A stretch of 43,492 bases of DNA, taken from NCBI RefSeq assembly GCF_003612125.1, contig NZ_RAWI01000031.1, positions 1 to 43,492 of the forward strand. The letters are read 5' to 3'. Positions within the stretch are counted from its first letter, which is position 1; each line of letters begins with the position of its first letter. Shown piece after piece: positions 12,700 to 33,568 of the stretch. The notes below the pieces were generated by a model that searched no databases, was not told the origin of the DNA, and was given only the letters and a program-made list of their open reading frames with translations. The translations under genes were made by a program, and so were the position numbers. Origin of the DNA: Corallococcus praedator. GTDB lineage: Bacteria > Myxococcota > Myxococcia > Myxococcales > Myxococcaceae.

Positions 12700-13209
12700 G
12701 TGATGATGGCAGGCAATGCTGGCGGTGGATGGGTGCGGGCGCTCGCGGTCACCGCGCTCGTCTGGGGTTTCACGGCGATGGCGCAGGCCGTGCCCACCAC
12801 GAAGGTGATGACGACGGTGCCGGTGACGGGAGCGGCCCTCGACACGGTGGTGGCCTCCGTGCTGGACGTGGGGGTGAGCCGGGGCGGCACGCTGACGGTG
12901 ACGTTGCGCATCCTGTCGGACAGTGGGGCCGTGCTCGCGGAGGTCACGGGGCCGGTGACGGAGGGTGTCCCGCTGCGCCTGTCGGCCCGGGCCCCCTCGG
13001 CCGCCGGCGTTCGGGCCCAGCTCGTCTTTCCGTCGAACACCGAGCCGCTCGCCCTGGGCGGTCTGGTGTTCGAGCGATGGACCCCGCCGGCGCCTCCCGG
13101 AAATCGACCCTTGTTCTGCAAGATTCCCAGGACCGGTGATCCGCTGGGCGGGTATCCCAATCCGACCACGGGGGAACCCCTGCGGTGCACGGTGGCCTAC
13201 GGGAACTGA
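12700..13209 (+). CDS. Small secreted protein of the sigma/CHAT operon
   Basis: The 169-aa product has a signal peptide (VRALAVTALVWGFTAMAQAV) followed by a beta-rich domain (LDVGVSRGGTLTVTLRILSD). The tail is rich in Pro and Gly with two Cys (LFCKIPRTGDPL and PLRCTVAYGN) that could form a disulfide. I recognise no family. It lies 51 bp after the anti-sigma-like gene and one base before the CHAT gene's GTG, so it is in the operon. A role as periplasmic partner or substrate of the CHAT protease is possible but only inferred. Confidence 0.65.
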   Translation: MMMAGNAGGGWVRALAVTALVWGFTAMAQAVPTTKVMTTVPVTGAALDTVVASVLDVGVSRGGTLTVTLRILSDSGAVLAEVTGPVTEGVPLRLSARAPSAAGVRAQLVFPSNTEPLALGGLVFERWTPPAPPGNRPLFCKIPRTGDPLGGYPNPTTGEPLRCTVAYGN

Positions 13210-13210
13210 C

Positions 13211-16078
13211 GTGTCCGGGGTCCGGCGACAGCGCATGCCGCGTCTGGGATTGCTCCTCCTCGCGGTGGGGCTGACCCTGCACGGCCTCGTGGCCGTCGCC
13301 GGACCTCCAGAGCCCTCCGCGCTCGCCCGGTGCGAGGAGGGCTTCGCCGCCCATCCGGAGGGTTCGGACGCGGCGATGTGTTTCTTCCGCGAGGCCCAGG
13401 ACCCCGCCCGTCGCGACGAGGCCCGGCGCAGGCTGGGCGGCCTCATCGCGAGCCATCCGGATCGCCCCTGGCTCACGCTGGTGCTCGGACACGTGGAGAT
13501 GCTCTCCGAGCCGCGCCTGGCGGAAGCGTCCTACCGCCGCGCGGCCCTCGCGTTCCGGCGGCTGGGGGACGCGGAGGGGGAGGTGATGGCCGGCATCAAC
13601 CTGCGCAACGTGCTGGGGTTGCTGGGCCAGACGGAGGAGGCGCACGTCTGGGTCCTGCGGGTGGGGGAAGTGGCCCGTGCCTCCGGGGATGCCCAGCTCC
13701 AGGTGCGAGCGCTCATCCTGGAGGCGTCCGAGCTCTCCGACCTGGGCCAGGACCTGGGCCGCGCCTATCGCCTCCTCAAGCGCGCGGAGGTGCTCGTCTT
13801 CTCCGGGGGCAGCGACGGGATGAAGAAGCAGTTGCTGAACGGCCTGGCCACCGTGAGCGCGAACCTGGGGCATTACGACGAGGCGCTGGATGCGTATGGG
13901 AAGCTCGCGGAGCTCGCGCGCAGCACCCACGACCTGGGCACGGAGGCGCGGGTGCGGCTCGCCTTCGCCACCCTCGCGTTCCAGCGCCATGAGGAGCAGC
14001 CCGAACCGGGAGGTCGGCCGGAGCTGCTGCGCCTCGCACGCGAAGCGCTCGCGGCGGCGAAGCGCGCGGGCAGCAAGGCCTTCGAGGCGATGGCCCTGCG
14101 CCTCGTGGCGGAGCTGCTGGGCGACGGCCCGGAGGAGCAGCGCGAGGCGGATGGACACCTGACGCGCTGTCTGGACCTGGCCCGCGAGGCGGGGCTGCCC
14201 GAGCGGCGCATCGCCTGTCTGTGGACGCGCGCGGAACGGCTCGCGGGCGTGGATGCCGCCGCCGCCGAGCGCGACGCGGACGAAGCCCTGGCCCTCGCCG
14301 CCGAGCATGACAATCCGCGCTACCTCGCCTCCGCGTGGCGGGCGCGCTCGATGGTGGCCTTCCGCACGCGGCCCCTGCCGGAGGCGCTGCGACAGGCGGA
14401 GCGCGCGCTGGACGCGGTGGAGGTCCTGCGCCAGTTGCAGAAGGACGCCTCCAGCCAGGCGGAGCTGTTCTCCAGTTGGGCCCATGACTATCACCGGCTC
14501 GCGGGCCGCACGCTGGAGGCCGGTGAGACCTCCGCGCTGCCGTCCCGCGAAGCGATGGAGCGCGCCTTCGCGGTGAGTGAGCGGCTGCGCGCCCGGACGT
14601 TGTTCGAGGCGCTGGCGGCTTCCCGGGCCCTCTCCGCCGGAGAGGACACGCCCGAGCGTCGGGAGGCGCGGGCCCACGCGCTGCGCGGCCTGTCCACCAC
14701 CCAGCGCCGGCTGCTCGAAAAGGACCTGTCCGAGTCCGAGCGCACGCGACTGCTGGCAGAACTCCAGGAGCTGGAGCGACGGGAGCACGAGCTGCGGCCC
14801 GCACCCCGTCACGCCGAGGTCCGGTTCGCGTCGCTGACCCAGACCGAGCAGCGCCTGGGGACCGACGAGGCACTGCTCGTCTTCCTCGTGGGCGCGGACC
14901 AGGACTTCCAGGGCGCGCCAGCGGGTGGTGCGTGGGTGCTGGCGGTGACCCGCGAGGGCACGCGCGCGCACCGCCTTCCCGAACGGGCCCGGCTGCGTCC
15001 CGCGGTGGCGCTCCTGTCGGGCCTCATCGAGCGGCGCGACGGTTCGGAGGCCGGGGCCGCCGCCGCGCTGTATGCGCAGTTGCTTGCCCCCGCGCTGCGG
15101 GAGCTTCCTTCGAGCGTGTCGCGTCTGTTGTTGGTGCCGGACGGGCCGCTGCACGACCTGGCCTTCGCGGCGTTGCGGGAGCGCGCGGACGGACCGCCGT
15201 TGATCTCCCGGTACGAGCTGGCGTTGGTGCCCTCCGCGAGCCTGCTGCACCACTGGCGGGAGCGGGCCGTGCGCCCCCCGGGAGGCGAGGCCCTGGTCCT
15301 GGCGGATCCGGACCGGGCCGCGGCCCCGACGGTGGTGGCCTCCGCGCGGGGCGGCGTGTTCGGGGAGACCGCGAACCTGGGAGCGCTCCCCGAAGCGAGG
15401 CGCGAAGGGCACACCGTGGAGGCGTCCCTGGAGGACACCGCCGTGAAGCCCCGGCTGCTGGTGGGGGCCGCCGCCTCCGAGCAGGCCCTGAAGGCGTCCC
15501 GGTTGGACGACGTGCGCATCCTCCACGTCGCCGCGCACGCCGTCGTCGACGTCGAGGCCCCGGAGCGCTCCGCGCTGGTGCTGGCCCCGGGCGCGGAGCA
15601 GGAGGACGGTCTGCTCCAGCCCCGGGAGATCACGGAGCTGGGCCTGGGGGACGCGCTGGTGGTGCTCTCCAGTTGCCAGGGCGCGTCCGGCGCGCAGCTC
15701 GCGGGGGAAGGGGTGCTGAGCCTGGCGCGGGCCTTCTTCGAAGCCGGTGCGCGCGCCGTGGTGGCCAGCCTGTGGCCCCTGCGTGACGCCGAGGCCGCGT
15801 GGCTCCTGGAGCGCTATTACAGACATCTGGCCATGGGGCAGGGCGTGTCACAGGCCCTGCGCTCCGCCCAGCGCGACGCCTGGGAGGACGGTCAGCCCGC
15901 CGCGGCCTGGGCCGGACTCGGGGTGATGGGGGACGCGGCGCTGGTCCCCGTGCCTTCCCAGGCGCAGGATGTGTCAAATGCGGCGGCTCTGGGATGGACG
16001 TGGTTTCTTCCTGCTCTAATCTGCGCCCTTCTTGGGACTGCCTACTGGCATTGGAAGAGGAACGCTAGCAATAGATAG
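13211..16078 (+). CDS. TPR-CHAT protein, secreted or membrane-anchored caspase-like protease
   Basis: The 955-aa product starts at GTG 13211, one base after the previous stop; ATG 13235 is the alternative. A signal peptide (MPRLGLLLLAVGLTLHGLVA) leads into a long TPR-type helical region to about residue 500, then a CHAT domain. The CHAT dyad is intact: His776 in HVAAHAV and Cys822 in LSSCQGAS. A C-terminal membrane segment (LGWTWFLPALICALLGTAYW) followed by KRNASNR suggests anchoring with the catalytic domain outside the cytoplasm. Base composition drops sharply at about 15968, so the last 35 or so codons look like part of the neighbouring foreign cassette. The segment from 15721 on is repeated at 20161 and 24601. 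The sigma operon context suggests stress-triggered proteolysis. Confidence 0.87.
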   Translation: MSGVRRQRMPRLGLLLLAVGLTLHGLVAVAGPPEPSALARCEEGFAAHPEGSDAAMCFFREAQDPARRDEARRRLGGLIASHPDRPWLTLVLGHVEMLSEPRLAEASYRRAALAFRRLGDAEGEVMAGINLRNVLGLLGQTEEAHVWVLRVGEVARASGDAQLQVRALILEASELSDLGQDLGRAYRLLKRAEVLVFSGGSDGMKKQLLNGLATVSANLGHYDEALDAYGKLAELARSTHDLGTEARVRLAFATLAFQRHEEQPEPGGRPELLRLAREALAAAKRAGSKAFEAMALRLVAELLGDGPEEQREADGHLTRCLDLAREAGLPERRIACLWTRAERLAGVDAAAAERDADEALALAAEHDNPRYLASAWRARSMVAFRTRPLPEALRQAERALDAVEVLRQLQKDASSQAELFSSWAHDYHRLAGRTLEAGETSALPSREAMERAFAVSERLRARTLFEALAASRALSAGEDTPERREARAHALRGLSTTQRRLLEKDLSESERTRLLAELQELERREHELRPAPRHAEVRFASLTQTEQRLGTDEALLVFLVGADQDFQGAPAGGAWVLAVTREGTRAHRLPERARLRPAVALLSGLIERRDGSEAGAAAALYAQLLAPALRELPSSVSRLLLVPDGPLHDLAFAALRERADGPPLISRYELALVPSASLLHHWRERAVRPPGGEALVLADPDRAAAPTVVASARGGVFGETANLGALPEARREGHTVEASLEDTAVKPRLLVGAAASEQALKASRLDDVRILHVAAHAVVDVEAPERSALVLAPGAEQEDGLLQPREITELGLGDALVVLSSCQGASGAQLAGEGVLSLARAFFEAGARAVVASLWPLRDAEAAWLLERYYRHLAMGQGVSQALRSAQRDAWEDGQPAAAWAGLGVMGDAALVPVPSQAQDVSNAAALGWTWFLPALICALLGTAYWHWKRNASNR

Positions 16079-16120
16079 AAGTTGCCAACAAGCAGAGTGG
16101 GAGGATCTGAATTGTTGTGA

Positions 16121-18742
16121 CTATCGTGCATGCACACGAGAGGTCGACTTAAAAAGAGAGCGTATTTCCTGACGACAAAGTTCAGGTAGTTGCAGGGTAG
16201 CTAAGTCTAGTTCTTGAATTTTCTGCATTAGATCATCTCGATCCAGCGCCCGCGGCCAACGAGTGGCGCTCATTAACAGAAGCGCGGTCATTCTTGACAA
16301 TCCTGCCGCAATTAAGGATAGCGTAGTCTTGTCGCTTGCTCCGAATTCAATATAAAAGTGTAGCGGGACTAGTGAGGCCACGAGGTCTCCTTTCCCTGAT
16401 GCTTGAAGGAATGCGGCTAGAGTTTCGTTGTAAACCCGCAAGTACTTCACGTATTTGTAGTGAAGGTCGCGTTCGAGGGCCTCCAGCAGGTCACGGATGG
16501 CTGTGTTCGTTTGAGTATCCGGAATGCTATAATACGTGATTCGATTGGAAATCAGCTCGCGAAGAGAGTCCCCCAGACACCAGCGACATGCGAGTGCCCC
16601 GAAATATTTGTAGCTCTCGTTCTCGGTGCGAAAAAACACATCATCAAGTCTTTTGAATAGGGCCTGGATTTTTCGGGCGGCTTGTACTGCGCGCGGATCG
16701 GGCGGAAACATCGACTGGATGTCTTCGACATCGGTGAAGAGTTGCCATAGATCACGTATCTTCCAAGGCGATACCGTGCCGCTTCTTCTGAGAAGATCTG
16801 AAGGCACGCCTACCTTTTCAACTACTTCTTTGACTACGTCGCGACAACGCACGTCTAGCTCTAGAAGGCGCTTGCGCGTGCCTTCCGAGGAGAACTGGGA
16901 GTCAGCAAGTGAAATGCCTGTGAGTGAGTATTCTGAAACTACCTTTGAGAAGGCTTGTTCCCCTAGCTTTGTTGCCTCGTGTTCCGAAGGGAGTGAGGGG
17001 TCATTGATTGCGTCCAGGATTTTCTGGAACTTGGCATCGATGGTTAGTGTTTCTCGAAAGGATGAGCGAATTTTGCGTAGGCGGGATGCGCTTATTGCCT
17101 CTTCTGCCCATTGCTCATTTTCGAGGCACCAAACGTTGCCCGTAAATGTGTAGCGTAGCCGGCCAGCTCTGCCGGCTAGGTTCCAGAAATCCCCAGACGA
17201 CATGGGTTTTTTGCGCCCGCGCATTGGCTGCTGGACAAATAGGTTCTTGGCTGGAAGGTTGACCCCTTGCAGCAAGGTGCTTGTGCAACATACGAATCGA
17301 ATCTTTCCTGTTCTGACGAGGTCTTCGATGCGCGCTCGTACAACATGGGGCATCGCGCCATAGTGGTAGGCGACCCCTCGTCGCAAAACCTCAATCAGTG
17401 CGTAGCTGCGGTGAATATGATTTTGCATGAAGTCTATGAGTTCTTGAAGCTCCTCTTCGACAGGCTCAATTTCGGGTAGGCCTGCGGCAATTGCTTTGGC
17501 GACCTCTTCTGCTGAGTGTGCGTCGTTTGCGTAGATGATGCTGGTCTCTGCTGCTCCCGTAAATGTAAGGGCTGCCGCTGCTATTTTGTTTCGCACCCCG
17601 CGAAACCGTCTGTTGATTGTGGTTGAGCTAACATTGAGCAATCCACGTGTTCCGAGGACGCGAACGCCAACTTGCTGCGGCATTCGTTCAATCTCGGATA
17701 GAATGATGAGCGTTTGGGAGACAGGGGACTCTTCGGTTGTGAAAAACTCGCCGTCGCGCTCCAATGAGAATTCGCTCAGCAAAAAACCTGGGTTCTCCGC
17801 TAGAGGGCTTGCAAAGTGAATGAGTGCTCGAGGAAATACCTCCCGGACGCGCGACACTGCTGTGTGCAGTAGCATGCCTCTGTCGTCGTCCTCTAGTTCC
17901 TGTGCCTCGTCAACGTAGAGCACGTCAATACGCGGCCGAGGTTCCGGTTCGGCTGGGTTGAGCAAGCTCATCAACCGCTCCTGGGTCAATACGTAAACTA
18001 TTCCTTTGAGGAGCTGACTCGAGTCCACTGGCAGCGGAGCAGATGTGACCTCGACACTGTCGAGGTTGTATCGACGAAGTTGTGAAATTAAGTCTGCCTG
18101 AACTTGTCGAATCAGGGCGCGTGTTGGGACTAGATAGACAATAGAGGTTGGGTGCCCGGTAGTTAGTCGAGTTGCGAACTCTCGAATAATGTCTAGCGAT
18201 AAGACGAATGATTTGCCTGCGGACGTAGGAGCGGAAACGCTTACTGGGCGCCGGCTGCCGAGCGCCTCGAACAGGCGGTGTTGAAAATCGGTGAGAACTT
18301 CGGTGACCTCATTGCCGATTGATATGGCAATTGGTGCTACGGTGTTCTCTTGCTCGCGGACAAGTGTCTCGATGGTTAAGGTGGAGAAAGTTCTTTCCCC
18401 TGAGACTCTCCCGTGGACCTCTTGAAGCAGGGGTCTGGCGGGGAAGTGGCCAAGCCGTGCTAGAACAACGTCGGCTGCGAGTTGTTCTCCGATGCCTCCG
18501 TTGTCAGTGACGATCTTTGTTACTGCCTCGTACGCATATCGGCGGAATCGTTCACGTTCCGATGCGTCCTCAAAGTCTACGCCAAGTGCAAGGCGAGATG
18601 AGATGAGTATGACGAAGCGCCGCTCTGACGAGGTTAATGCCGCATCTGCTGATGAGAGAGGGGCAGGAAGTCTCGCGTATACTTCTCGCCTCCGAAGTTG
18701 GTCTAAAAGACTGAGATATCGAGCAGTGTCTTCGGGGTTCAA
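16121..18742 (-). CDS. hamB: HamB, Hachiman defence helicase (copy 1)
   Basis: The 873-aa protein is a Ski2-like superfamily 2 helicase. Visible motifs are the Walker A APTSAGKS (171-178), PTRAL (206-210), TQERL (253-257), the Walker B DEAQ (278-281), HFASP (309-313), TSTLLQGVNLPAKN (487-500) and the arginine-finger motif NLAGRAGR (521-528). The long helical C-terminal region fits HamB. In studied Hachiman systems HamB binds HamA, senses aberrant or invading DNA by ATP-driven translocation, and releases the HamA nuclease. The start is a TTG at 18742, with AAAGG about ten bases upstream, 33 bp after the hamA stop. It converges on the CHAT gene with a 42-bp gap. Its codon use is AT-richer than that of the flanking genes. 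Copy 2 encodes the same protein. Confidence 0.88.
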   Translation of the reverse strand: MNPEDTARYLSLLDQLRRREVYARLPAPLSSADAALTSSERRFVILISSRLALGVDFEDASERERFRRYAYEAVTKIVTDNGGIGEQLAADVVLARLGHFPARPLLQEVHGRVSGERTFSTLTIETLVREQENTVAPIAISIGNEVTEVLTDFQHRLFEALGSRRPVSVSAPTSAGKSFVLSLDIIREFATRLTTGHPTSIVYLVPTRALIRQVQADLISQLRRYNLDSVEVTSAPLPVDSSQLLKGIVYVLTQERLMSLLNPAEPEPRPRIDVLYVDEAQELEDDDRGMLLHTAVSRVREVFPRALIHFASPLAENPGFLLSEFSLERDGEFFTTEESPVSQTLIILSEIERMPQQVGVRVLGTRGLLNVSSTTINRRFRGVRNKIAAAALTFTGAAETSIIYANDAHSAEEVAKAIAAGLPEIEPVEEELQELIDFMQNHIHRSYALIEVLRRGVAYHYGAMPHVVRARIEDLVRTGKIRFVCCTSTLLQGVNLPAKNLFVQQPMRGRKKPMSSGDFWNLAGRAGRLRYTFTGNVWCLENEQWAEEAISASRLRKIRSSFRETLTIDAKFQKILDAINDPSLPSEHEATKLGEQAFSKVVSEYSLTGISLADSQFSSEGTRKRLLELDVRCRDVVKEVVEKVGVPSDLLRRSGTVSPWKIRDLWQLFTDVEDIQSMFPPDPRAVQAARKIQALFKRLDDVFFRTENESYKYFGALACRWCLGDSLRELISNRITYYSIPDTQTNTAIRDLLEALERDLHYKYVKYLRVYNETLAAFLQASGKGDLVASLVPLHFYIEFGASDKTTLSLIAAGLSRMTALLLMSATRWPRALDRDDLMQKIQELDLATLQLPELCRQEIRSLFKSTSRVHAR

Positions 18743-18775
18743 TGAGCGAGGCCTTTGGTTGCGCGTGATCTGAGG

Positions 18776-19723
18776 TTAGCTTTCGCCTCTGAGTTCCTTG
18801 TGGAAATAATCACGAAATTCCTGAACGCTTTGGAATGGCAGAAGTAGAAATTCAAAATTTAGGTGGGCGTATTCGAATTTTGAAAATCTGTTTTTGATCA
18901 TCTGTGCGATGTTTGGGAGGTATTGCTTGTAGAGCGACTCAAAGTTCTTGGCGAAAGCTCGGCGGTCTGTAGACATCTCTCGATATTTGCCCCAGTCCCA
19001 ACCAATAAGACAGGCATGGACTATCCGACATCGTCGGTTGGCGGGATCTGCGTCGTCAATGAATTTGCTGATTTCTTCGCGAAATCTCTCGTTGATGTGC
19101 TTGAAGTGAGATGTGACGAGCATGAGTTCGTTTTTTCTACGATTCTCGTCGTGGAAGTCTTTAATGCTTGTAAATGCGCTGCTCAGTCCTCCAGCGATTT
19201 CTCCGTGGAGCTTTGATTCCCCTAGATAGACGACCAAGCAGTCGGAGGTATTGTCCCACCTGGCATGGATTCCATCGCACCCCTTGACTTCGTCGTTTTC
19301 ATTTGTCTTGAGTTCCATCTTGCAGACAAGTTGAGGAGCCTCGAAAAGGCTTTCGAGCAGTAGGTAGAGCAAAAGCTCGCCTGGGTCTCCCGCTGTCTTT
19401 TTCTGCGTGAATAAACGCCGTGCTTCGCGCCATTCCAGTGCTGACAGGTCGTCAGGGTCTGATGAAATGGATTTGAGTTGGTGTCTGACTCGGGATGAAA
19501 GTGCGTATTTGACGATATGGCGCATCAACACCGAGGCCAGCACACGAATCTTGGGCTCACCGTCTCCATCGAAGTCGATGTAGTGCGCATGGAGGGTTGC
19601 TTCGACCCCTTGAATTTCGGCTGAGAACTCGACTTGACGAATGCACGCTCGGCACTGTTTGGCCGAGGCCGACAGTAAGTTCTTGAGGCCGGGTAGGATA
19701 AGCGGAGGATCCTGGGCGTCCAT
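18776..19723 (-). CDS. hamA: HamA, Hachiman defence nuclease (DUF1837), intact active site (copy 1)
   Basis: The 315-aa protein matches the DUF1837/HamA pattern: GELLLYLLLESLFEAPQLV, then KMELKTNENDEVKGCDGIH and VVYLGESKLHGEIAGG. The PD-(D/E)xK nuclease residues are Asp150 (in CDGIH), Glu169 and Lys171 (in GESK), all present in this copy. In characterised systems HamA is held inactive by HamB and degrades DNA once the helicase is triggered, clearing phage by killing or arresting the cell. ATG 19723 is followed 948 bp later by the hamB gene, and the order hamA-hamB is the standard operon. A small ORF lies 33 bp upstream. This is the catalytically complete member of the pair. Confidence 0.88.
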   Translation of the reverse strand: MDAQDPPLILPGLKNLLSASAKQCRACIRQVEFSAEIQGVEATLHAHYIDFDGDGEPKIRVLASVLMRHIVKYALSSRVRHQLKSISSDPDDLSALEWREARRLFTQKKTAGDPGELLLYLLLESLFEAPQLVCKMELKTNENDEVKGCDGIHARWDNTSDCLVVYLGESKLHGEIAGGLSSAFTSIKDFHDENRRKNELMLVTSHFKHINERFREEISKFIDDADPANRRCRIVHACLIGWDWGKYREMSTDRRAFAKNFESLYKQYLPNIAQMIKNRFSKFEYAHLNFEFLLLPFQSVQEFRDYFHKELRGES

Positions 19724-19756
19724 GAGCTGCCATCCTACACCGGCATCGCCCGCTTA

Positions 19757-19972
19757 CTATCTCCATGGGCGTGCCGCCCCGTAGAGCAAGCCCAAGATGA
19801 GGGACGGTGGTGGAGTGTCGCTCAATCTCGCGATGTCGCGCCACGACGAGAGCTTCTCTGCACCTGGACTGCATGCGAGAGGGAGCACAAGTTCGTTGAT
19901 GACTTGGCGGTCGGTTGTTCTGAAGAGGGCACGGAGGTCAGTAGGGTCAAGTGTTGAATACAAGGTCATCAA
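19757..19972 (-). CDS. Small ORF upstream of hamA, unknown (copy 1)
   Basis: A 70-71-aa reading frame begins at TTG 19972 or ATG 19969 (MTLYSTLDPTDLRALFRTTD) and ends 33 bp before hamA, in the same direction. The frame is open upstream to a stop at 20108-20110, so it could also be the tail of a longer truncated gene. The text (NELVLPLACSPGAEKLSSW, PPPSLILGLLYGAARPW) looks protein-like and predicts helices, with no catalytic motif. I do not recognise it. It may be a leader, a third Hachiman-associated gene or a remnant. Confidence 0.4.
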   Translation of the reverse strand: MMTLYSTLDPTDLRALFRTTDRQVINELVLPLACSPGAEKLSSWRDIARLSDTPPPSLILGLLYGAARPWR

Positions 19973-20024
19973 TGCGATTCCTCGTGCTATCCGCCGGCGG
20001 TTACTATTGGTGACGGACCAGTAC

Positions 20025-20160
20025 CTATCGATGAGGGGACTCGCGGGACCGCGTAAAGGCGCTCCCCCCCCATCCGTTGATGTACACAGGGAACCGCATT
20101 TCGTTGTTCACGCCGCTCGTGTAGAAGATGTCCAGGTGCTCGTAGCCCCGGCTCATGCCC
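20025..20160 (-). pseudogene. 3' remnant of a lectin-repeat (PLL-like) gene at cassette edge (copy 1)
   Basis: The minus frame reads LDIFYTSGVNNEMRFPVYINGW and then continues to a stop at 20025. This matches the end of the intact metalloprotease-lectin encoded at 26931-28433 (MDVFYRGTDNTMRHSWYINGW). The fragment is cut off at 20160, where CHAT-gene DNA begins. An eight-C run next to the original stop position probably explains the extra tail residues. It marks what once lay next to hamA on this side. Confidence 0.7.
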
Positions 20161-20518
20161 CCTGGCGCGGGCCTTCTTCGAAGCCGGTGCGCGCGCCGTG
20201 GTGGCCAGCCTGTGGCCCCTGCGTGACGCCGAGGCCGCGTGGCTCCTGGAGCGCTATTACAGACATCTGGCCATGGGGCAGGGCGTGTCACAGGCCCTGC
20301 GCTCCGCCCAGCGCGACGCCTGGGAGGACGGTCAGCCCGCCGCGGCCTGGGCGGGGCTCGGGGTGATGGGGGACGCGGCGCTGGTCCCCGTGCCTTCCCA
20401 GGCGCAGGATGTGTCAAATGCGGCGGCTCTGGGATGGACGTGGTTTCTTCCTGCTCTAATCTGCGCCCTTCTTGGGACTGCCTACTGGCATTGGAAGAGG
20501 AACGCTAGCAATAGATAG
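20161..20518 (+). pseudogene. 5'-truncated copy of the TPR-CHAT gene 3' end
   Basis: This segment repeats the last 358 bases of the CHAT gene, including the C-terminal membrane segment and stop. It lacks the TPRs, the catalytic His and Cys, and the signal peptide. A GTG at 20198 could start a 106-residue open frame, but no ribosome-binding site is evident. Two third-position differences from copy 1 (20353 and 20356) leave Ala-Gly unchanged. Confidence 0.85.
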
Positions 20519-20560
20519 AAGTTGCCAACAAGCAGAGTGGGAGGATCTGAATTGTTGTGA

Positions 20561-23182
20561 CTATCGTGCATGCACACGAGAGGTCGACTTAAAAAGAGAG
20601 CGTATTTCCTGACGACAAAGTTCAGGTAGTTGCAGGGTAGCTAAGTCTAGTTCTTGAATTTTCTGCATTAGATCATCTCGATCCAGCGCCCGCGGCCAAC
20701 GAGTGGCGCTCATTAACAGAAGCGCGGTCATTCTTGACAATCCTGCCGCAATTAAGGATAGCGTAGTCTTGTCGCTTGCTCCGAATTCAATATAAAAGTG
20801 TAGCGGGACTAGTGAGGCCACGAGGTCTCCTTTCCCTGATGCTTGAAGGAATGCGGCTAGAGTTTCGTTGTAAACCCGCAAGTACTTCACGTATTTGTAG
20901 TGAAGGTCGCGTTCGAGGGCCTCCAGCAGGTCACGGATGGCTGTGTTCGTTTGAGTATCCGGAATGCTATAATACGTGATTCGATTGGAAATCAGCTCGC
21001 GAAGAGAGTCCCCCAGACACCAGCGACATGCGAGTGCCCCGAAATATTTGTAGCTCTCGTTCTCGGTGCGAAAAAACACATCATCAAGTCTTTTGAATAG
21101 GGCCTGGATTTTTCGGGCGGCTTGTACTGCGCGCGGATCGGGCGGAAACATCGACTGGATGTCTTCGACATCGGTGAAGAGTTGCCATAGATCACGTATC
21201 TTCCAAGGCGATACCGTGCCGCTTCTTCTGAGAAGATCTGAAGGCACGCCTACCTTTTCAACTACTTCTTTGACTACGTCGCGACAACGCACGTCTAGCT
21301 CTAGAAGGCGCTTGCGCGTGCCTTCCGAGGAGAACTGGGAGTCAGCAAGTGAAATGCCTGTGAGTGAGTATTCTGAAACTACCTTTGAGAAGGCTTGTTC
21401 CCCTAGCTTTGTTGCCTCGTGTTCCGAAGGGAGTGAGGGGTCATTGATTGCGTCCAGGATTTTCTGGAACTTGGCATCGATGGTTAGTGTTTCTCGAAAG
21501 GATGAGCGAATTTTGCGTAGGCGGGATGCGCTTATTGCCTCTTCTGCCCATTGCTCATTTTCGAGGCACCAAACGTTGCCCGTAAATGTGTAGCGTAGCC
21601 GGCCAGCTCTGCCGGCTAGGTTCCAGAAATCCCCAGACGACATGGGTTTTTTGCGCCCGCGCATTGGCTGCTGGACAAATAGGTTCTTGGCTGGAAGGTT
21701 GACCCCTTGCAGCAAGGTGCTTGTGCAACATACGAATCGAATCTTTCCTGTTCTGACGAGGTCTTCGATGCGCGCTCGTACAACATGGGGCATCGCGCCA
21801 TAGTGGTAGGCGACCCCTCGTCGCAAAACCTCAATCAGTGCGTAGCTGCGGTGAATATGATTTTGCATGAAGTCTATGAGTTCTTGAAGCTCCTCTTCGA
21901 CAGGCTCAATTTCGGGTAGGCCTGCGGCAATTGCTTTGGCGACCTCTTCTGCTGAGTGTGCGTCGTTTGCGTAGATGATGCTGGTCTCTGCTGCTCCCGT
22001 AAATGTAAGGGCTGCCGCTGCTATTTTGTTTCGCACCCCGCGAAACCGTCTGTTGATTGTGGTTGAGCTAACATTGAGCAATCCACGTGTTCCGAGGACG
22101 CGAACGCCAACTTGCTGCGGCATTCGTTCAATCTCGGATAGAATGATGAGCGTTTGGGAGACAGGGGACTCTTCGGTTGTGAAAAACTCGCCGTCGCGCT
22201 CCAATGAGAATTCGCTCAGCAAAAAACCTGGGTTCTCCGCTAGAGGGCTTGCAAAGTGAATGAGTGCTCGAGGAAATACCTCCCGGACGCGCGACACTGC
22301 TGTGTGCAGTAGCATGCCTCTGTCGTCGTCCTCTAGTTCCTGTGCCTCGTCAACGTAGAGCACGTCAATACGCGGCCGAGGTTCCGGTTCGGCTGGGTTG
22401 AGCAAGCTCATCAACCGCTCCTGGGTCAATACGTAAACTATTCCTTTGAGGAGCTGACTCGAGTCCACTGGCAGCGGAGCAGATGTGACCTCGACACTGT
22501 CGAGGTTGTATCGACGAAGTTGTGAAATTAAGTCTGCCTGAACTTGTCGAATCAGGGCGCGTGTTGGGACTAGATAGACAATAGAGGTTGGGTGCCCGGT
22601 AGTTAGTCGAGTTGCGAACTCTCGAATAATGTCTAGCGATAAGACGAATGATTTGCCTGCGGACGTAGGAGCGGAAACGCTTACTGGGCGCCGGCTGCCG
22701 AGCGCCTCGAACAGGCGGTGTTGAAAATCGGTGAGAACTTCGGTGACCTCATTGCCGATTGATATGGCAATTGGTGCTACGGTGTTCTCTTGCTCGCGGA
22801 CAAGTGTCTCGATGGTTAAGGTGGAGAAAGTTCTTTCCCCTGAGACTCTCCCGTGGACCTCTTGAAGCAGGGGTCTGGCGGGGAAGTGGCCAAGCCGTGC
22901 TAGAACAACGTCGGCTGCGAGTTGTTCTCCGATGCCTCCGTTGTCAGTGACGATCTTTGTTACTGCCTCGTACGCATATCGGCGGAATCGTTCACGTTCC
23001 GATGCGTCCTCAAAGTCTACGCCAAGTGCAAGGCGAGATGAGATGAGTATGACGAAGCGCCGCTCTGACGAGGTTAATGCCGCATCTGCTGATGAGAGAG
23101 GGGCAGGAAGTCTCGCGTATACTTCTCGCCTCCGAAGTTGGTCTAAAAGACTGAGATATCGAGCAGTGTCTTCGGGGTTCAA
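20561..23182 (-). CDS. hamB: HamB, Hachiman defence helicase (copy 2)
   Basis: This encodes the same 873-aa Ski2-like helicase as the gene at 16121-18742, with no residue difference that I can find. All helicase motifs (APTSAGKS, DEAQ, NLAGRAGR) are kept, so it should be active. It follows the altered hamA of unit 2 by 33 bp and starts with TTG at 23182. Because the neighbouring HamA has lost its predicted catalytic Asp, this HamB may serve with either HamA protein or form an inactive complex with the mutant one. It overlaps nothing and ends 42 bp from the CHAT remnant. Confidence 0.88.
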   Translation of the reverse strand: MNPEDTARYLSLLDQLRRREVYARLPAPLSSADAALTSSERRFVILISSRLALGVDFEDASERERFRRYAYEAVTKIVTDNGGIGEQLAADVVLARLGHFPARPLLQEVHGRVSGERTFSTLTIETLVREQENTVAPIAISIGNEVTEVLTDFQHRLFEALGSRRPVSVSAPTSAGKSFVLSLDIIREFATRLTTGHPTSIVYLVPTRALIRQVQADLISQLRRYNLDSVEVTSAPLPVDSSQLLKGIVYVLTQERLMSLLNPAEPEPRPRIDVLYVDEAQELEDDDRGMLLHTAVSRVREVFPRALIHFASPLAENPGFLLSEFSLERDGEFFTTEESPVSQTLIILSEIERMPQQVGVRVLGTRGLLNVSSTTINRRFRGVRNKIAAAALTFTGAAETSIIYANDAHSAEEVAKAIAAGLPEIEPVEEELQELIDFMQNHIHRSYALIEVLRRGVAYHYGAMPHVVRARIEDLVRTGKIRFVCCTSTLLQGVNLPAKNLFVQQPMRGRKKPMSSGDFWNLAGRAGRLRYTFTGNVWCLENEQWAEEAISASRLRKIRSSFRETLTIDAKFQKILDAINDPSLPSEHEATKLGEQAFSKVVSEYSLTGISLADSQFSSEGTRKRLLELDVRCRDVVKEVVEKVGVPSDLLRRSGTVSPWKIRDLWQLFTDVEDIQSMFPPDPRAVQAARKIQALFKRLDDVFFRTENESYKYFGALACRWCLGDSLRELISNRITYYSIPDTQTNTAIRDLLEALERDLHYKYVKYLRVYNETLAAFLQASGKGDLVASLVPLHFYIEFGASDKTTLSLIAAGLSRMTALLLMSATRWPRALDRDDLMQKIQELDLATLQLPELCRQEIRSLFKSTSRVHAR

Positions 23183-23215
23183 TGAGCGAGGCCTTTGGTT
23201 GCGCGTGATCTGAGG

Positions 23216-24163
23216 TTAGCTTTCGCCTCTGAGTTCCTTGTGGAAATAATCACGAAATTCCTGAACGCTTTGGAATGGCAGAAGTAGAAATTCAAAATTT
23301 AGGTGGGCGTATTCGAATTTTGAAAATCTGTTTTTGATCATCTGTGCGATGTTTGGGAGGTATTGCTTGTAGAGCGACTCAAAGTTCTTGGCGAAAGCTC
23401 GGCGGTCTGTAGACATCTCTCGATATTTGCCCCAGTCCCAACCAATAAGACAGGCATGGACTATCCGACATCGTCGGTTGGCGGGATCTGCGTCGTCAAT
23501 GAATTTGCTGATTTCTTCGCGAAATCTCTCGTTGATGTGCTTGAAGTGAGATGTGACGAGCATGAGTTCGTTTTTTCTACGATTCTCGTCGTGGAAGTCT
23601 TTAATGCTTGTAAATGCGCTGCTCAGTCCTCCAGCGATTTCTCCGTGGAGCTTTGATTCCCCTAGATAGACGACCAAGCAGTCGGAGGCATTGCCCCACC
23701 TGGCATGGCTCCCATAGCACCCCTTGACTTCGTCGTTTTCATTTGTCTTGAGTTCCATCTTGCAGACAAGTTGAGGAGCCTCGAAAAGGCTTTCGAGCAG
23801 TAGGTAGAGCAAAAGCTCGCCTGGGTCTCCCGCTGTCTTTTTCTGCGTGAATAAACGCCGTGCTTCGCGCCATTCCAGTGCTGACAGGTCGTCAGGGTCT
23901 GATGAAATGGATTTGAGTTGGTGTCTGACTCGGGATGAAAGTGCGTATTTGACGATATGGCGCATCAACACCGAGGCCAGCACACGAATCTTGGGCTCAC
24001 CGTCTCCATCGAAGTCGATGTAGTGCGCATGGAGGGTTGCTTCGACCCCTTGAATTTCGGCTGAGAACTCGACTTGACGAATGCACGCTCGGCACTGTTT
24101 GGCCGAGGCCGACAGTAAGTTCTTGAGGCCGGGTAGGATAAGCGGAGGATCCTGGGCGTCCAT
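23216..24163 (-). CDS. hamA: HamA-like DUF1837 protein with altered active site (copy 2)
   Basis: This 315-aa protein is identical to copy 1 except for four residues: Asp150Tyr, Ile152Ser, Asp157Gly and Thr159Ala. CDGIH becomes CYGSH. Asp150 is the first acidic residue of the predicted PD-(D/E)xK centre, so the nuclease is probably dead, although GESK (169-171) is kept. The five base changes (23689, 23694, 23709, 23711, 23716) lie within 28 bp, and four of them change residues. The frame is intact over its full length. It could act as a silent decoy or buffer for HamB, be a decaying duplicate, or be a sequence artefact. Copy 1 carries the family-type residues, so copy 2 is the derived one. 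Confidence 0.85.
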   Translation of the reverse strand: MDAQDPPLILPGLKNLLSASAKQCRACIRQVEFSAEIQGVEATLHAHYIDFDGDGEPKIRVLASVLMRHIVKYALSSRVRHQLKSISSDPDDLSALEWREARRLFTQKKTAGDPGELLLYLLLESLFEAPQLVCKMELKTNENDEVKGCYGSHARWGNASDCLVVYLGESKLHGEIAGGLSSAFTSIKDFHDENRRKNELMLVTSHFKHINERFREEISKFIDDADPANRRCRIVHACLIGWDWGKYREMSTDRRAFAKNFESLYKQYLPNIAQMIKNRFSKFEYAHLNFEFLLLPFQSVQEFRDYFHKELRGES

Positions 24164-24196
24164 GAGCTGCCATCCTACACCGGCATCGCCCGCTTA

Positions 24197-24412
24197 CTAT
24201 CTCCATGGGCGTGCCGCCCCGTAGAGCAAGCCCAAGATGAGGGACGGTGGTGGAGTGTCGCTCAATCTCGCGATGTCGCGCCACGACGAGAGCTTCTCTG
24301 CACCTGGACTGCATGCGAGAGGGAGCACAAGTTCGTTGATGACTTGGCGGTCGGTTGTTCTGAAGAGGGCACGGAGGTCAGTAGGGTCAAGTGTTGAATA
24401 CAAGGTCATCAA
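24197..24412 (-). CDS. Small ORF upstream of hamA, unknown (copy 2)
   Basis: The sequence matches the small frame at 19757-19972. Its identity to copy 1 reflects the recent duplication and is not evidence for coding. The frame ends 33 bp before hamA copy 2, as in unit 1. Confidence 0.38.
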   Translation of the reverse strand: MMTLYSTLDPTDLRALFRTTDRQVINELVLPLACSPGAEKLSSWRDIARLSDTPPPSLILGLLYGAARPWR

Positions 24413-24464
24413 TGCGATTCCTCGTGCTATCCGCCGGCGGTTACTATTGGTGACGGACCAGTAC

Positions 24465-24600
24465 CTATCGATGAGGGGACTCGCGGGACCGCGTAAAGGC
24501 GCTCCCCCCCCATCCGTTGATGTACACAGGGAACCGCATTTCGTTGTTCACGCCGCTCGTGTAGAAGATGTCCAGGTGCTCGTAGCCCCGGCTCATGCCC
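24465..24600 (-). pseudogene. 3' remnant of lectin-repeat gene (copy 2)
   Basis: This repeats the truncated lectin end seen at 20025-20160, again interrupted at its 5' side by CHAT DNA beginning at 24601. Confidence 0.7.
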
Positions 24601-24724
24601 CCTGGCGCGGGCCTTCTTCGAAGCCGGTGCGCGCGCCGTGGTGGCCAGCCTGTGGCCCCTGCGTGACGCCGAGGCCGCGTGGCTCCTGGAGCGCTATTAC
24701 AGACATCTGGCCATGGGGCAGGGC
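24601..24724 (+). pseudogene. Third, 124-bp copy of the CHAT segment closing the array
   Basis: Bases 24601-24724 are identical to 15721-15844 and 20161-20284, then diverge after ATGGGGCAGGGC. The segment encodes part of the CHAT domain after the catalytic Cys (VASLWPLRDAEAAWLLERYY) and has neither end of the gene. It is the right-hand direct repeat bounding the array. The frame runs on by chance into the histidine kinase gene, so an automated start call at 24638 would be wrong. Confidence 0.9.
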
Positions 24725-24814
24725 CCGTGCGAAGGCCGCCTGGTCGCCCAGAGTCCAGGGGGCGGGACGGCTGCACGGGTAGCTTCAGCGGGAAGGGATC
24801 CCCACCATCATCCT

Positions 24815-26059
24815 GTGAGTGAACCCCTGAAAGGCCCCGAGACGACGGATGCACGGCTGCAAGCGCTGGAGCGCCTGCTGGCCCTCCCCGCGGCGGAACT
24901 CCAGCCCACGCTGAACACGGTAGGGCAGATCATCTCGGAGCTGACCCACGCCGAAAAGGTGGACGTCTTCCTCCTGGAGCCGAGCACCCAGAGCCTGGTC
25001 GCGTTCGGCACCAGCGACACGCCCATGTCGCGTCTGCAGAAGGCGCTGGGCCTGGACCGGTTGCAGCTGGCCAACGGGGGCCGCGCCGTGCAGGTGTACG
25101 AAACGGGCGAGCCCTTCATGACGGGCCGTCAGGAGGAGGACCCGGAGGAGCTTCCCGGCATCAAGCACCGGCTGGGGGTCCGCTCCTCCCTGCTGGTGCC
25201 CCTGCCCATCGGCATGGAGATCCGGGGCGTGGTGGGCGTGGCGTCCGCCCGGAACGACTTCTTCACCGACCGCGACCTGCGCTTCCTCCAGGCGGTGGCG
25301 CGCTGGGCGGGCATGGTGGCCCACCGGGTGGAGCTGACGCGGGAGCTGACGAACCTGGCCGTGAAGCAGGCCCGCCGGGCGGCGGCGGAGGAGCTCGTCA
25401 CCGTGCTGGCCCACGACATGGCCAACTACCTGCTGCCGCTCCAGGCCCGCATCCAGCTCATCCAACGGCGGGCCCGGCGCAACCAGGACCTGGAGGACCT
25501 GCGGGACGCGGATGGCGCGGCGTCGTCGCTGCGCTCCCTCACCCGGCTCATCCGGGACCTGCTGGACGTGGGGCGCCTGGACCAGGGCCTCTTCACCCTG
25601 CGTCCCCAGCCGGTGGACGTGGCCGGGCTGGCGCGCGAACTGGCGGCCACCGCGAACACGCCCGAGCATCCGGTGCACTACCGGGGCCCGGAAGAGAAGG
25701 TGCTGATCGCGGACCCCGAACGCCTGCGCCAGGCGCTGGAGAACCTGGTGGCCAACGCGCTGAAGCACTCGCCGCAGGGGCTTCCCGTGGTCCTCGACGT
25801 GAGTACGCAGCAGCGGCAGGAGGGGACGTGGGCGCGCATCTCGGTCATCGACGAAGGACCGGGAATCCCGCCCGAAAAACTGCCCACCCTCTTCGAGCGC
25901 TTCGCGCGGGGGCCCGGCTCCACGGGGCTGGGCATCGGCCTGTTCCTCGCCCGGCGCATCGCCGAGGCCCACGGGGGCACGCTGGAGGTGAGCTCGAAGC
26001 CGGGGGAGGGCACGCGCTTCGAACTGGCGCTGCCGGAGGGGCTGGCGAGCTCCGGGTAG
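24815..26059 (+). CDS. GAF-domain sensor histidine kinase
   Basis: The 414-aa cytoplasmic kinase has a GAF-type sensor domain at about residues 20-175 (FLLEPSTQSLVAFGTSD, LLVPLPIGMEIRGVVGVAS). A dimerisation/phosphoacceptor helix follows with His200 in LAHDMANYLLPLQ, then an HATPase domain with the N box (NLVANALKHSP), G1 box (DEGPGIPPEKL) and G2 box (GLGIGLFLARRIAEAHGG). No membrane segment or receiver domain is present, and no response regulator lies nearby. I chose GTG 24815 because a GGGAAGGG site lies about 15 bases upstream; the frame upstream of it comes from the CHAT fragment. The signal is unknown. Confidence 0.88.
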   Translation: MSEPLKGPETTDARLQALERLLALPAAELQPTLNTVGQIISELTHAEKVDVFLLEPSTQSLVAFGTSDTPMSRLQKALGLDRLQLANGGRAVQVYETGEPFMTGRQEEDPEELPGIKHRLGVRSSLLVPLPIGMEIRGVVGVASARNDFFTDRDLRFLQAVARWAGMVAHRVELTRELTNLAVKQARRAAAEELVTVLAHDMANYLLPLQARIQLIQRRARRNQDLEDLRDADGAASSLRSLTRLIRDLLDVGRLDQGLFTLRPQPVDVAGLARELAATANTPEHPVHYRGPEEKVLIADPERLRQALENLVANALKHSPQGLPVVLDVSTQQRQEGTWARISVIDEGPGIPPEKLPTLFERFARGPGSTGLGIGLFLARRIAEAHGGTLEVSSKPGEGTRFELALPEGLASSG

Positions 26060-26930: not shown

Positions 26931-28433
26931 CTACCAGCCGTTGATGTACCAGGAGTGCCGCATCGTGTTGTCGGTGCCGCGATAGAAGACATCCATCCGG
27001 CCGGCGCCCCAGCTCGCGACGTCGGGCGCGGAGGTCATCTCACCGCCCAGCCACTGCCAGCCGCTCCAACTGGAGCCCGTCCACGCGTTCACCCAGAGGG
27101 CGTTGTCCGTGCCCCGGCCGAACACCTCCAACTGGTTGACGCCGCGCGAGACCGCCGCCGGAGCGGAGGTGAAGCTGCCGCCCAGCGAGTACCAGGGGCT
27201 CCAGCCGGCGCCATCCCAGGCCTTGTGAAGGAGGGTGTTGTCGGAGCCCCTGGCGAACAGGTCGATGCGGTTCGGGCCCCAGCTCACCGCGGCTGGATCC
27301 GACGTCACGACGCCCGGAATCACGTTCCACGCCGTCCAGCCCGAGCCCGTCCAGGCCTGGTGATAGAGCTGGTTGTCCTGGCCCTGGCCGAACACGTCCA
27401 ACCGGTTCGCGCCCCACGACGCCACGGCCGGGCCGGATTTGAAGACGCCGCCCTGCGAATACCAGAGGCTCCAGCCGGTGCCATCCCACGCCTTGTGGAG
27501 CATGGAGTTGTCCGTGCCGCGCGCGAACACGTCGATGCGGTTCGGACCCCAGCTCACCGCCGCCGGGTCGGAGGTGATGGTGCCCCCGTGGAGGGCCCAG
27601 CCGCTCCAGCCCGCGCCCGCCCAGGACTGCTGGTAGAGCTGGTTGTCCAGGCCCCGGCCGAACAGGTCCAGCCGGTTCGCGCCCCAGGACGCCACCGCCG
27701 GGCCGGAGTTGAAGCTGCCGCCCAGCGACTCCCAGGGGATGCCGTAGGTGAGCTTCGCGCCCTGGACGTCCGTGGCGCTGAGGTTGCCGTCCCCATTCCA
27801 GGCCGGGTTGCAGTAGTTCATCACGGAGCCCAGGTCCCACGGCCCGATGAGCCAGTCCCCCGACGAGCCCTGCGCGGGCTCGGTGCAGGTGGAGGGCCGG
27901 TCCGGACGGTTCTGCTCGTGGGCGTAGCCCAGCGCGTGGCCAAACTCATGCACCGCGATGGCGTCGATGCAGTACTTGAGGCTGCTGGCGCACGACGGGC
28001 TCCAGTTGGCGAACGTGAAGTTCAGCACCATGCCCTGGGCCATGCCGTTGAGACCCTTGCCCAGCGCCTTCACGTGCGGGCCCACGTCGCTGATGTTGAT
28101 GCGCACGCCGCTGGAGGAGGTGGAACACGTCCCCCAGCCGTAGAAGCGCGCGCTCGAGTTCGCCTCCCACGTGCGTGTCACCGCGTCGCGCACCCACTGC
28201 CGCTGGGTGGCGTTGCCGGCGGCCGGGTTCTCCCAACACACGGGGATGCTCAGCGGCCGCCAGAGGGTGGAGGACGCCACGTAGAGGTCGGCCTCGCTGT
28301 TGCGCAGCTCTCCCGGAGGCGTCTGCTCGGAAGGCATGGACGCCTCCGGCGCGCCGCCACAGCCCATCAGCGACCCCAACCCGAACGTCGTGAGCAGCGC
28401 CATCCCCAGGCGGTGCGTGTTTTCAGTGAACAT
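26931..28433 (-). CDS. Lipoprotein metzincin-type protease with six lectin-like propeller repeats
   Basis: The 500-aa product starts at ATG 28433, with AGGGG upstream, and has a lipoprotein leader ending LGSLMGCGG. The protease domain has the zinc motif HEFGHALGYAHEQNRPD (HExxHxxGxxH) and the Met-turn GSVMNYCNP, as in astacin/matrixin-type metzincins. Six repeats of about 45 residues follow (SWGANRLDLFGRGLDNQLY and variants), of the PLL/DUF346 lectin type, probably a beta-propeller that binds glycans. Repeats 1 and 3, and 2 and 4, resemble each other most, so a two-repeat block was duplicated. The likely role is surface-anchored protein digestion. It is convergent with the ABC gene and divergent from the TetR gene. 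Confidence 0.88.
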   Translation of the reverse strand: MFTENTHRLGMALLTTFGLGSLMGCGGAPEASMPSEQTPPGELRNSEADLYVASSTLWRPLSIPVCWENPAAGNATQRQWVRDAVTRTWEANSSARFYGWGTCSTSSSGVRINISDVGPHVKALGKGLNGMAQGMVLNFTFANWSPSCASSLKYCIDAIAVHEFGHALGYAHEQNRPDRPSTCTEPAQGSSGDWLIGPWDLGSVMNYCNPAWNGDGNLSATDVQGAKLTYGIPWESLGGSFNSGPAVASWGANRLDLFGRGLDNQLYQQSWAGAGWSGWALHGGTITSDPAAVSWGPNRIDVFARGTDNSMLHKAWDGTGWSLWYSQGGVFKSGPAVASWGANRLDVFGQGQDNQLYHQAWTGSGWTAWNVIPGVVTSDPAAVSWGPNRIDLFARGSDNTLLHKAWDGAGWSPWYSLGGSFTSAPAAVSRGVNQLEVFGRGTDNALWVNAWTGSSWSGWQWLGGEMTSAPDVASWGAGRMDVFYRGTDNTMRHSWYINGW

Positions 28434-28667
28434 GTATCCCCTCTTGAGTCCGCCCCCCGGGATGGGGCCTGCATGGCCCACCGCTCCACGGAGCGAGACG
28501 GGCCGCCCTTTGACACAAAGCCTGACGCACTGGAAGTGAAATCAAGCAAGTCCAGTGAGTGCAGGAAGTTCTTGGGTGCGCAGGCTTTGAAATCACAGTC
28601 GCTGTCGCACGCTTGAGCGGGCTCATGACACATCCGGACCTGGCGCGGCTGCCCTATGCTCCGGCCC

Positions 28668-32617: not shown

Positions 32618-33568
32618 ATGTCCCGCCGGAAGCTGCGCCGTGCCTTCTCCCGCCTGTGGCTGCTCGCGCCCGTCACCACGCTGGGGGTGGGGTGTTCCTC
32701 GACGTGGGGATGCGACTCGGAGTCCCACCCGGAGACGTTCTCGCTTGCCTCCCTCACGTTGGCGGATGGGGGCGTGGCCACGGCGGACACCTCCTGCGAG
32801 GAGCTGTGCGCCCGGGTGATGGGCGGCGCGCCCTGTGAGTTCACGCGTTCCGCCGAATCACTTCCCGAGCCCGACGAGGTGCGCTGTCAGGTGACGTTCC
32901 TGTGCGAGGGCCGGCGGCCGGAAGGCCTGTGCGGCGAGGGCGCGGTGGAGGGGCGGGTGCCGGCGCTGGGAGCGCTCTTCGCGAGGATGGCGCACCTGGA
33001 GGCCGCGTCCGTTCCCGCGTTCGAGCGGCTCGCGGACGAGCTGGCCGCGCACGGTGCGCCGGAGCGGCTGGTGCGGGCCGCGCGTCGTTCCGCGGGAGAG
33101 GAGGTGCGGCATGCGCGCGCGATGGAGGCCCTGGCGGTGCGTCACGGGGCCGCGATGCCGGAGGTGAAGGTGGCGCCGTTCGGGGACCGGTCGCTGGAGG
33201 CGCTGGCCATCGAGAACGCGGTGGAGGGCTGCGTGCGGGAGACCTTCGGCGCGTTGCTGGCGGGGTGGCAGGCGCGGTGCGCGGAGGATGCGACGGTGCG
33301 CGAAACGCTGGCGGCCATCGCGCCGGACGAGCTGCGTCACTCGGAGCTGTCCTGGGACATCGATGCCTGGGCGCAGGCGCGGCTGCCCGAGGATGCACGC
33401 GCGCGGGTTGAAGCGGCCCGGCATGAGGCCTGGCTCGCGTTGGAACGCGACGCCGCGGACAGCCTCATGCCAGAGCACGTGGCCCGCCGTTCCGGGCTGC
33501 CGTCGCCGGAAGTGGCCCAGCGGCTGGTGCGGGAGCTGGCGCGGACGTGTTCGACCGCGCGGGCGTGA
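32618..33568 (+). CDS. Ferritin-like domain lipoprotein, first of two paralogues
   Basis: The 316-aa protein has a leader with a lipobox-like TTLGVGCSS, a Cys-rich N-terminal part (CEELCARVMGGAPCEF) and a four-helix ferritin-like domain. Predicted di-iron ligands lie in HLEAASVPAFERL, EEVRHARAM, ENAVEGCVRETFGALL and DELRHSELSWDIDAW, two E...ExxH pairs. Its role may be metal binding or oxidative protection in the envelope; family function is not known to me. ATG 32618 is chosen for the leader. It shares long motifs with the gene at 36550. Confidence 0.78.
   Translation: MSRRKLRRAFSRLWLLAPVTTLGVGCSSTWGCDSESHPETFSLASLTLADGGVATADTSCEELCARVMGGAPCEFTRSAESLPEPDEVRCQVTFLCEGRRPEGLCGEGAVEGRVPALGALFARMAHLEAASVPAFERLADELAAHGAPERLVRAARRSAGEEVRHARAMEALAVRHGAAMPEVKVAPFGDRSLEALAIENAVEGCVRETFGALLAGWQARCAEDATVRETLAAIAPDELRHSELSWDIDAWAQARLPEDARARVEAARHEAWLALERDAADSLMPEHVARRSGLPSPEVAQRLVRELARTCSTARA

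Follow-up and report, generated by a model that had tools for sequence, protein, structure and literature searches.

Organisation of the locus

The window analysed here is an entire contig (C737; 43,492 nucleotides) of the Corallococcus praedator draft genome, which comprises 10.5 Mb in 1,491 contigs. Within it, a CHAT-domain gene is followed by two head-to-tail copies of a unit carrying the Hachiman defence genes hamB and hamA, by a remnant of the native CHAT 3' end and by a GAF/histidine kinase gene (Table 1). Three 124-bp segments (segment A; A1, A2 and A3 below) do not differ at any of their 124 bases, and the identity of all three stops precisely at their edges. They are themselves the edges of a larger feature, namely a 4,440-bp unit present twice and followed by a third that is truncated after its initial 124 bp. 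When the copies are compared at the period of 4,440, they show 7 mismatches in 4,564 comparable bases (copy 1 coordinates 15913, 15916 and five sites in 19249-19276), and segment A therefore marks the boundary between periods in a tandem duplication whose third copy is incomplete. As assembled, the locus consists of near-identical head-to-tail copies with the founding repeat at their bounds.

The repeat is beyond what chance would give, since the only other repeat family of the window (exact seeds of 20, minimum length 40) is one 70-nt pair of 81% identity, in direct orientation at 33192-33261 and 37505-37574. More diverged internal repeats are found at 26960-27738. The original prediction described three identical segments, taken as pieces of the CHAT gene that bound a duplicated defence module; direct comparison confirms the identity, and Pfam and PADLOC identify the module as Hachiman. 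In the following, X stands for the CHAT gene upstream of segment A, C for the CHAT segment after it, I for the inserted DNA and Y for the CHAT remnant beyond A3.

Table 1. Features of the locus in window coordinates.
Feature	Position	Strand	Basis or remark
CHAT-domain gene, 1037-aa ORF, true start possibly further in	12965..16078	+	Pfam CHAT 3.6e-58
Segment A, copy 1 (A1)	15721..15844	+	CHAT codons; identical to copies 2 and 3
Unit copy 1, 4,440 bp	15721..20160		period comparison
CHAT segment C, taken as native	15845..15963	+	79-92% to ten relatives; GC3 0.90
Two synonymous CHAT differences, 3 bp apart	15913..15916	+	relatives aligned, n=5
CHAT tail, taken as start of inserted DNA	15965..16078	+	GC3 0.55
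hamB copy 1, DEAD-box helicase	16121..18742	-	PADLOC HamB 1.7e-207
hamA copy 1, D-E(X)K motif intact	18776..19723	-	Pfam HamA 2.4e-49; PADLOC 7.5e-82
DUF346/lectin-like C-terminus fragment, cut at junction with segment A	20025..20153	-	best outside match E 0.012, weak
Segment A, copy 2 (A2)	20161..20284	+	identity to copies 1 and 3
Unit copy 2, 4,440 bp	20161..24600		period comparison
hamB copy 2	20561..23182	-	protein identical to copy 1
hamA copy 2, D150Y I152S D157G T159A	23216..24163	-	PADLOC 7.8e-78
Second copy of the cut DUF346-like fragment	24465..24593	-	ends unit copy 2
Segment A, copy 3 (A3, partial third unit)	24601..24724	+	identity to copies 1 and 2
Y, native CHAT 3' end remnant (RAKAAW...RLHG*)	24725..24784	+	out of frame with A3
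GAF/histidine kinase gene	24785..26059	+	Pfam; directly after CHAT in five relatives

The Hachiman genes

Each unit contains a CHAT 3' end and then, on the opposite strand, complete hamB and hamA genes; by both Pfam and PADLOC, HamA (DUF1837) and the HamB helicase are encoded together. The AlphaFold model of HamA copy 1 (mean pLDDT 91) has the HamA fold, its only PDB matches with E < 0.001 being three chains from entries titled Hachiman (8zue_A, 1.1e-06; 8vxy_A, 4.4e-06; 8vx9_A, 7.6e-06), with modest TM-scores by query of 0.58, 0.47 and 0.47, respectively. The partner chain in 8zue, 8zue_B, is named anti-bacteriophage protein B. At the sequence level, a plain search of the PDB with HamA gave no match, and a profile search retrieved a single chain, the AbpA/HamA-domain protein 9wh1_A (5.1e-09). 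The defence cargo of the unit is Hachiman and not the CHAT gene, since the latter has weak PADLOC matches only and was recovered from 14 of 15 other members of the genus in a DNA search, G013 giving short weak matches only.

The CHAT gene and the limits of the proposed insert

The CHAT gene is complete through unit copy 1. Its parts X, A and C show a similar level of identity to ten relatives (79-92% each) and, on this ground, all three are taken as native; a foreign origin of A and C was rejected, as their identity to the relatives resembles that of the upstream CHAT sequence. At about position 15965, in contrast, GC3 is observed to drop from 0.90 to 0.55, close to the values of hamA (0.57) and hamB (0.53), so that tail, hamA and hamB form one group (0.53-0.57) against the native parts (0.86-0.91). 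The position of this change suggests that the inserted DNA begins within the CHAT tail and that it came from a lower-GC source. Of ten relatives compared, seven encode a tail similar to this one (z 3.9-8.2, with the first three conserved residues removed), and no such likeness was found in G050, G003 and G010. The tail looks like that of most of these relatives and yet has a GC3 as low as that of hamA and hamB, which would fit a joint arrival.

On the other side, the unit ends with the cut C-terminus of a DUF346/lectin-like gene. This fragment (20025-20153) weakly resembles (E 0.036) the C-terminus of the protein encoded at 26931-28481 on the minus strand, which combines DUF346 repeats with a weak match to astacin and whose DNA contains internal repeats.

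After A3 the chromosomal order resumes at Y. Judged against a single relative, G007, about 220 bp of the native CHAT end are missing at the A3/Y join, and the join shares the bases AGGGC with that relative. The CHAT frame of A3 is open into the histidine kinase gene (24601-26059).

The locus in other genomes

The empty site is observed in five relatives (G014, G012, G007, G005 and G015), in which the CHAT gene is directly followed by the histidine kinase gene, with gaps between the two alignments of 92, 137 and 132 bp in G014, G012 and G007, respectively. In G003 and G010, the gene after CHAT is that of the ABC transporter, and the kinase gene is located elsewhere. The Hachiman part was searched by DNA (query 15850-20200, E <= 1e-20) in 96 genomes of the family, own genome included, with three candidates scored per genome, and was found in none of the 95 others; 13 of these match only the first 114 bases of the query, which are CHAT sequence.

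At the protein level, HamA relatives occur in 6 of the 145 genomes of the order, own included, the best outside match being 39% identical, and Pfam finds HamA in 9 of the 195 genomes of the phylum. In the phylum scan an adjacent HamA pair is present in this genome only, the two genes of G127 being separated by about 97 kb and those of G051 lying on separate contigs. A scan of genome contigs with a single HamA protein gave no relative; a profile scan confirmed 124 HamA loci, of which 80 were kept. A second hamA was not found in the fetched flanks of these 80 loci, some of the flanks being short, nor did the flanks fetched for 86 HamA loci show CHAT or the lectin fragment beside Hachiman at E 1e-3. 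Among viral contigs, there was a single HamA relative (26%). The main text of the Hachiman paper (PMC12278908) makes no mention of duplication or tandem copies of the system, which does not establish their absence from the literature.

Differences between the two copies

A 28-bp patch of hamA copy 2 (23689-23716, minus strand, corresponding to 19249-19276) holds five of the seven differences, and these five substitutions give D150Y, I152S, D157G and T159A; the HamB proteins are unchanged. The clustering has a chance probability of about 1.5e-7 by formula and did not arise in any of 400,000 simulations, so that the differences look like one or two multi-base events. The other two are the synonymous changes in the CHAT segment C, where the base of copy 2 is that of 4 of 5 relatives at 15913 and of all 5 at 15916.

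One substitution of the patch, D150Y, touches the D-E(X)K motif of HamA, which is conserved in this protein and whose E138A,K140A mutation ablates Hachiman defence (PMC12278908). HamA copy 1 has the intact motif (D150, E169, K171), and D, E and K are found at these positions in 80 of 80 homologous loci; HamA copy 2 retains E169 and K171 and has Tyr in place of D150. All 80 loci have I, V, L or A at residue 152. Residues 157 and 159 are variable among them, with Gly once at 157 and Ala 14 times at 159. The four residues 150, 152, 157 and 159 lie outside the peptide patterns by which these loci were found. The motif and mutant sections of the same paper include no Asp mutant. From its sequence, HamA copy 2 is predicted to be nuclease-dead, and the array would presumably pair a live nuclease with a dead one.

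Several sources for the 28-bp patch were considered and rejected. A hairpin template finds no sign in the sequence, as neither copy folds better than its shuffles (z 1.06 and 1.12). For a donor, the exact 30-base variant of copy 2 was sought in 204 loci and occurs only in the four that cover this stretch. Finally, retroelement hypermutation was dropped, since no observation made here points to it and the changes are not confined to the base A.

Probable origin of the tandem array

The arrangement probably arose when a Hachiman module, located at the 3' end of the chromosomal CHAT gene, was recently duplicated in tandem. In a first step, a lower-GC segment with a CHAT tail, hamB, hamA and the cut end of a lectin-like gene would have entered the CHAT gene, by an exchange inside CHAT on the left and an illegitimate join on the right, which would have left an extra 124-bp CHAT piece behind, with the old chromosome resuming after it at a short microhomology, giving X-A-C-I-A-Y. 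Such an intermediate was seen in no genome compared, the relatives showing the empty site. In a second step, of a classical kind, the two copies of the 124-bp segment A would have recombined unequally between sister chromosomes, which would have led to X-ACI-ACI-A-Y, the final order observed in the contig. In a third step, two multi-base mutation patches would have produced the differences now observed between the copies, one of them removing the Asp of the D-E(X)K motif from HamA copy 2. Since A and C of copy 2 are also of the native type, the duplication seems to be later than the insertion; we infer this order of events, as well as the intermediate and the enzymes, from the arrangement of the locus. 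The mechanism would be an ordinary duplication, and its twist, an altered second HamA, would be unusual and is unproven.

Unequal crossing-over after one A-B-A insertion (B being the rest of the unit) had been put forward in the original prediction, and it is the model that fits best. The same prediction held that the copy number could vary with no dedicated recombinase, and none is found among the unit ORFs scanned. Its proposal that the 124-bp repeats would provide the homology for gain and loss is incomplete, the main homology being that of the 4.4-kb near-identical units, over which collapse or expansion could occur by ordinary homologous recombination.

A possible, if doubtful, alternative is that there is only one Hachiman unit, or that cells of the population differ, and that two variants were strung into a tandem by the assembler. 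Published Corallococcus drafts were obtained from 2x250 Illumina reads with SPAdes 3.7 (PMC6306037), and reads of this length, if used here for the 1,491-contig draft, cannot phase the 3,332-bp core that is identical between the copies; order, linkage and copy number would then be the claim of the assembler. Furthermore, two such tight patches of differences, with five of seven in 28 bp, are unusual for slow divergence, and the repeat starts at 262x60+1 with a period of 74x60, an unexplained coincidence with 60-column file lines of about 1 in 3,600. A copied block of file lines is itself a poor explanation, as the copies differ at 7 places.

Several observations, however, argue against this alternative. 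Two contig ends of the draft carry exact 127-base repeats, which suggests an assembly K of 127 and does not establish it, given two other shared contig ends of 129 and 105 bp and one contig with a 400-base inverted terminal match. With a K of 127, the 124-bp repeat would be too short to branch the graph, and both the I-A-C junction, which should need reads carrying I-A-C, and the two alleles should derive from reads; moreover, a clonal single-copy culture is not expected to give two alleles. The repeat was also considered as a K-1 overlap of the assembly and rejected, the exact repeats of the contig ends being of 127 bases and not of 124. Elsewhere in the draft, the longest exact direct repeat listed is of 170 bp, in a survey of 50 other contigs (611,617 bases) that covered nine of them in their first 20 kb only and excluded ten N stretches. 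A search with the last 300 bases of the window, which covered the contigs of the genome above the tiny ones, found no contig sharing that end. If the draft is indeed a short-read one, the presence of both copies in one contig would be unexplained.

The single-crossover integration of a 4.4-kb circle with segment A and the Hachiman genes, the other route of the original prediction, is formally compatible with the A-B-A-B-A order and is nevertheless very improbable: it requires an earlier X-A-Y chromosome with a truncated CHAT gene and A already touching Y, whereas five relatives keep C and the tail between A and Y, and Pfam finds in the 14 ORFs in or overlapping the units nothing except CHAT, HamA and HamB, and no replication, integrase or relaxase gene.

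Integrative elements that enter the ends of genes restore the tail of the gene with its stop codon. In agreement with a site-specific element of this type, with the CHAT 3' end as its attachment site and a replacement tail on board, the insert restores a CHAT tail and stop codon, and this tail is similar to those of several relatives in spite of its low GC3. Such an origin is nonetheless most unlikely, as the unit ORFs scanned include no recombinase, the window no tRNA, region 15850-20180 no inverted repeats of at least 14 bp and the 95 other family genomes no DNA match, and as an attR would retain the native C and tail, both of which are missing from the right repeat. Repeats of at least 14 bp inside the unit were likewise not found.

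Possible consequences of the array

The outcomes of recombination can be deduced from the coordinates, provided that the contig is right. An exchange within the 3,528 bp of homology on the left side of the patch (15721-19248) would leave the dead allele, one within the 1,008 bp on its right side (19277-20284) would leave the live one, and an exchange between A1 and A3 would delete both units and create an in-frame CHAT-histidine kinase ORF of 1,404 codons. Ectopic Hachiman has been described as mildly toxic (PMC12278908). It is conceivable, and in our opinion unlikely, that the locus adjusts its own defence: a dead HamA would occupy the shared, identical HamB and damp a self-toxic system, the side of the exchange would set armed or disarmed single-copy descendants, and a rare A1xA3 event would remove both units and fuse CHAT to the kinase.

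If the array is real, a suicidal defence system would have been caught soon after its duplication, with one nuclease presumably inactivated and the sensor helicase intact, offering a natural test of the balance between protection and self-damage in cells. It would also bear on a point described as "enigmatic" by the Hachiman authors (PMC12278908), the retention by AbpAB of a HamA form that is inactive. If it is a product of the assembly, it would be a warning against reading near-identical defence repeats in short-read drafts at face value.

Comparison with known systems

Duplication of the kind proposed here is ordinary in bacteria. Unequal recombination between direct repeats, mediated by RecA, gives tandem duplications, with the highest rates from repeats longer than 200 bp (PMC7661048), and expansion was not seen in recA E. 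coli (PMC2656507). The present array shares with these duplications the repeat-bounded head-to-tail copies, and differs from them in its short 4.4-kb unit, its 124-bp founding repeat and its cargo, a defence module.

With respect to Hachiman (HamAB), the adjacent HamA and HamB, the PADLOC and Pfam assignments and the fold matches to Hachiman-titled chains all agree; the two tandem copies, and a second HamA without the Asp of the D-E(X)K motif, set this locus apart. A parallel to such a HamA is found in AbpAB, in which a HamA fold without catalytic residues stands beside a HamB-like helicase, the HamA-like domain of AbpA having catalytically inactive residues (PMC12278908). In the AbpA/HamA-domain chain 9wh1_A, the position of Asp 150 of HamA copy 1 is occupied by His. 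AbpA, however, has an extra N-terminal nuclease domain, whereas in the Corallococcus locus the HamA presumed to be dead accompanies a live one, of which it is a near-identical second copy.
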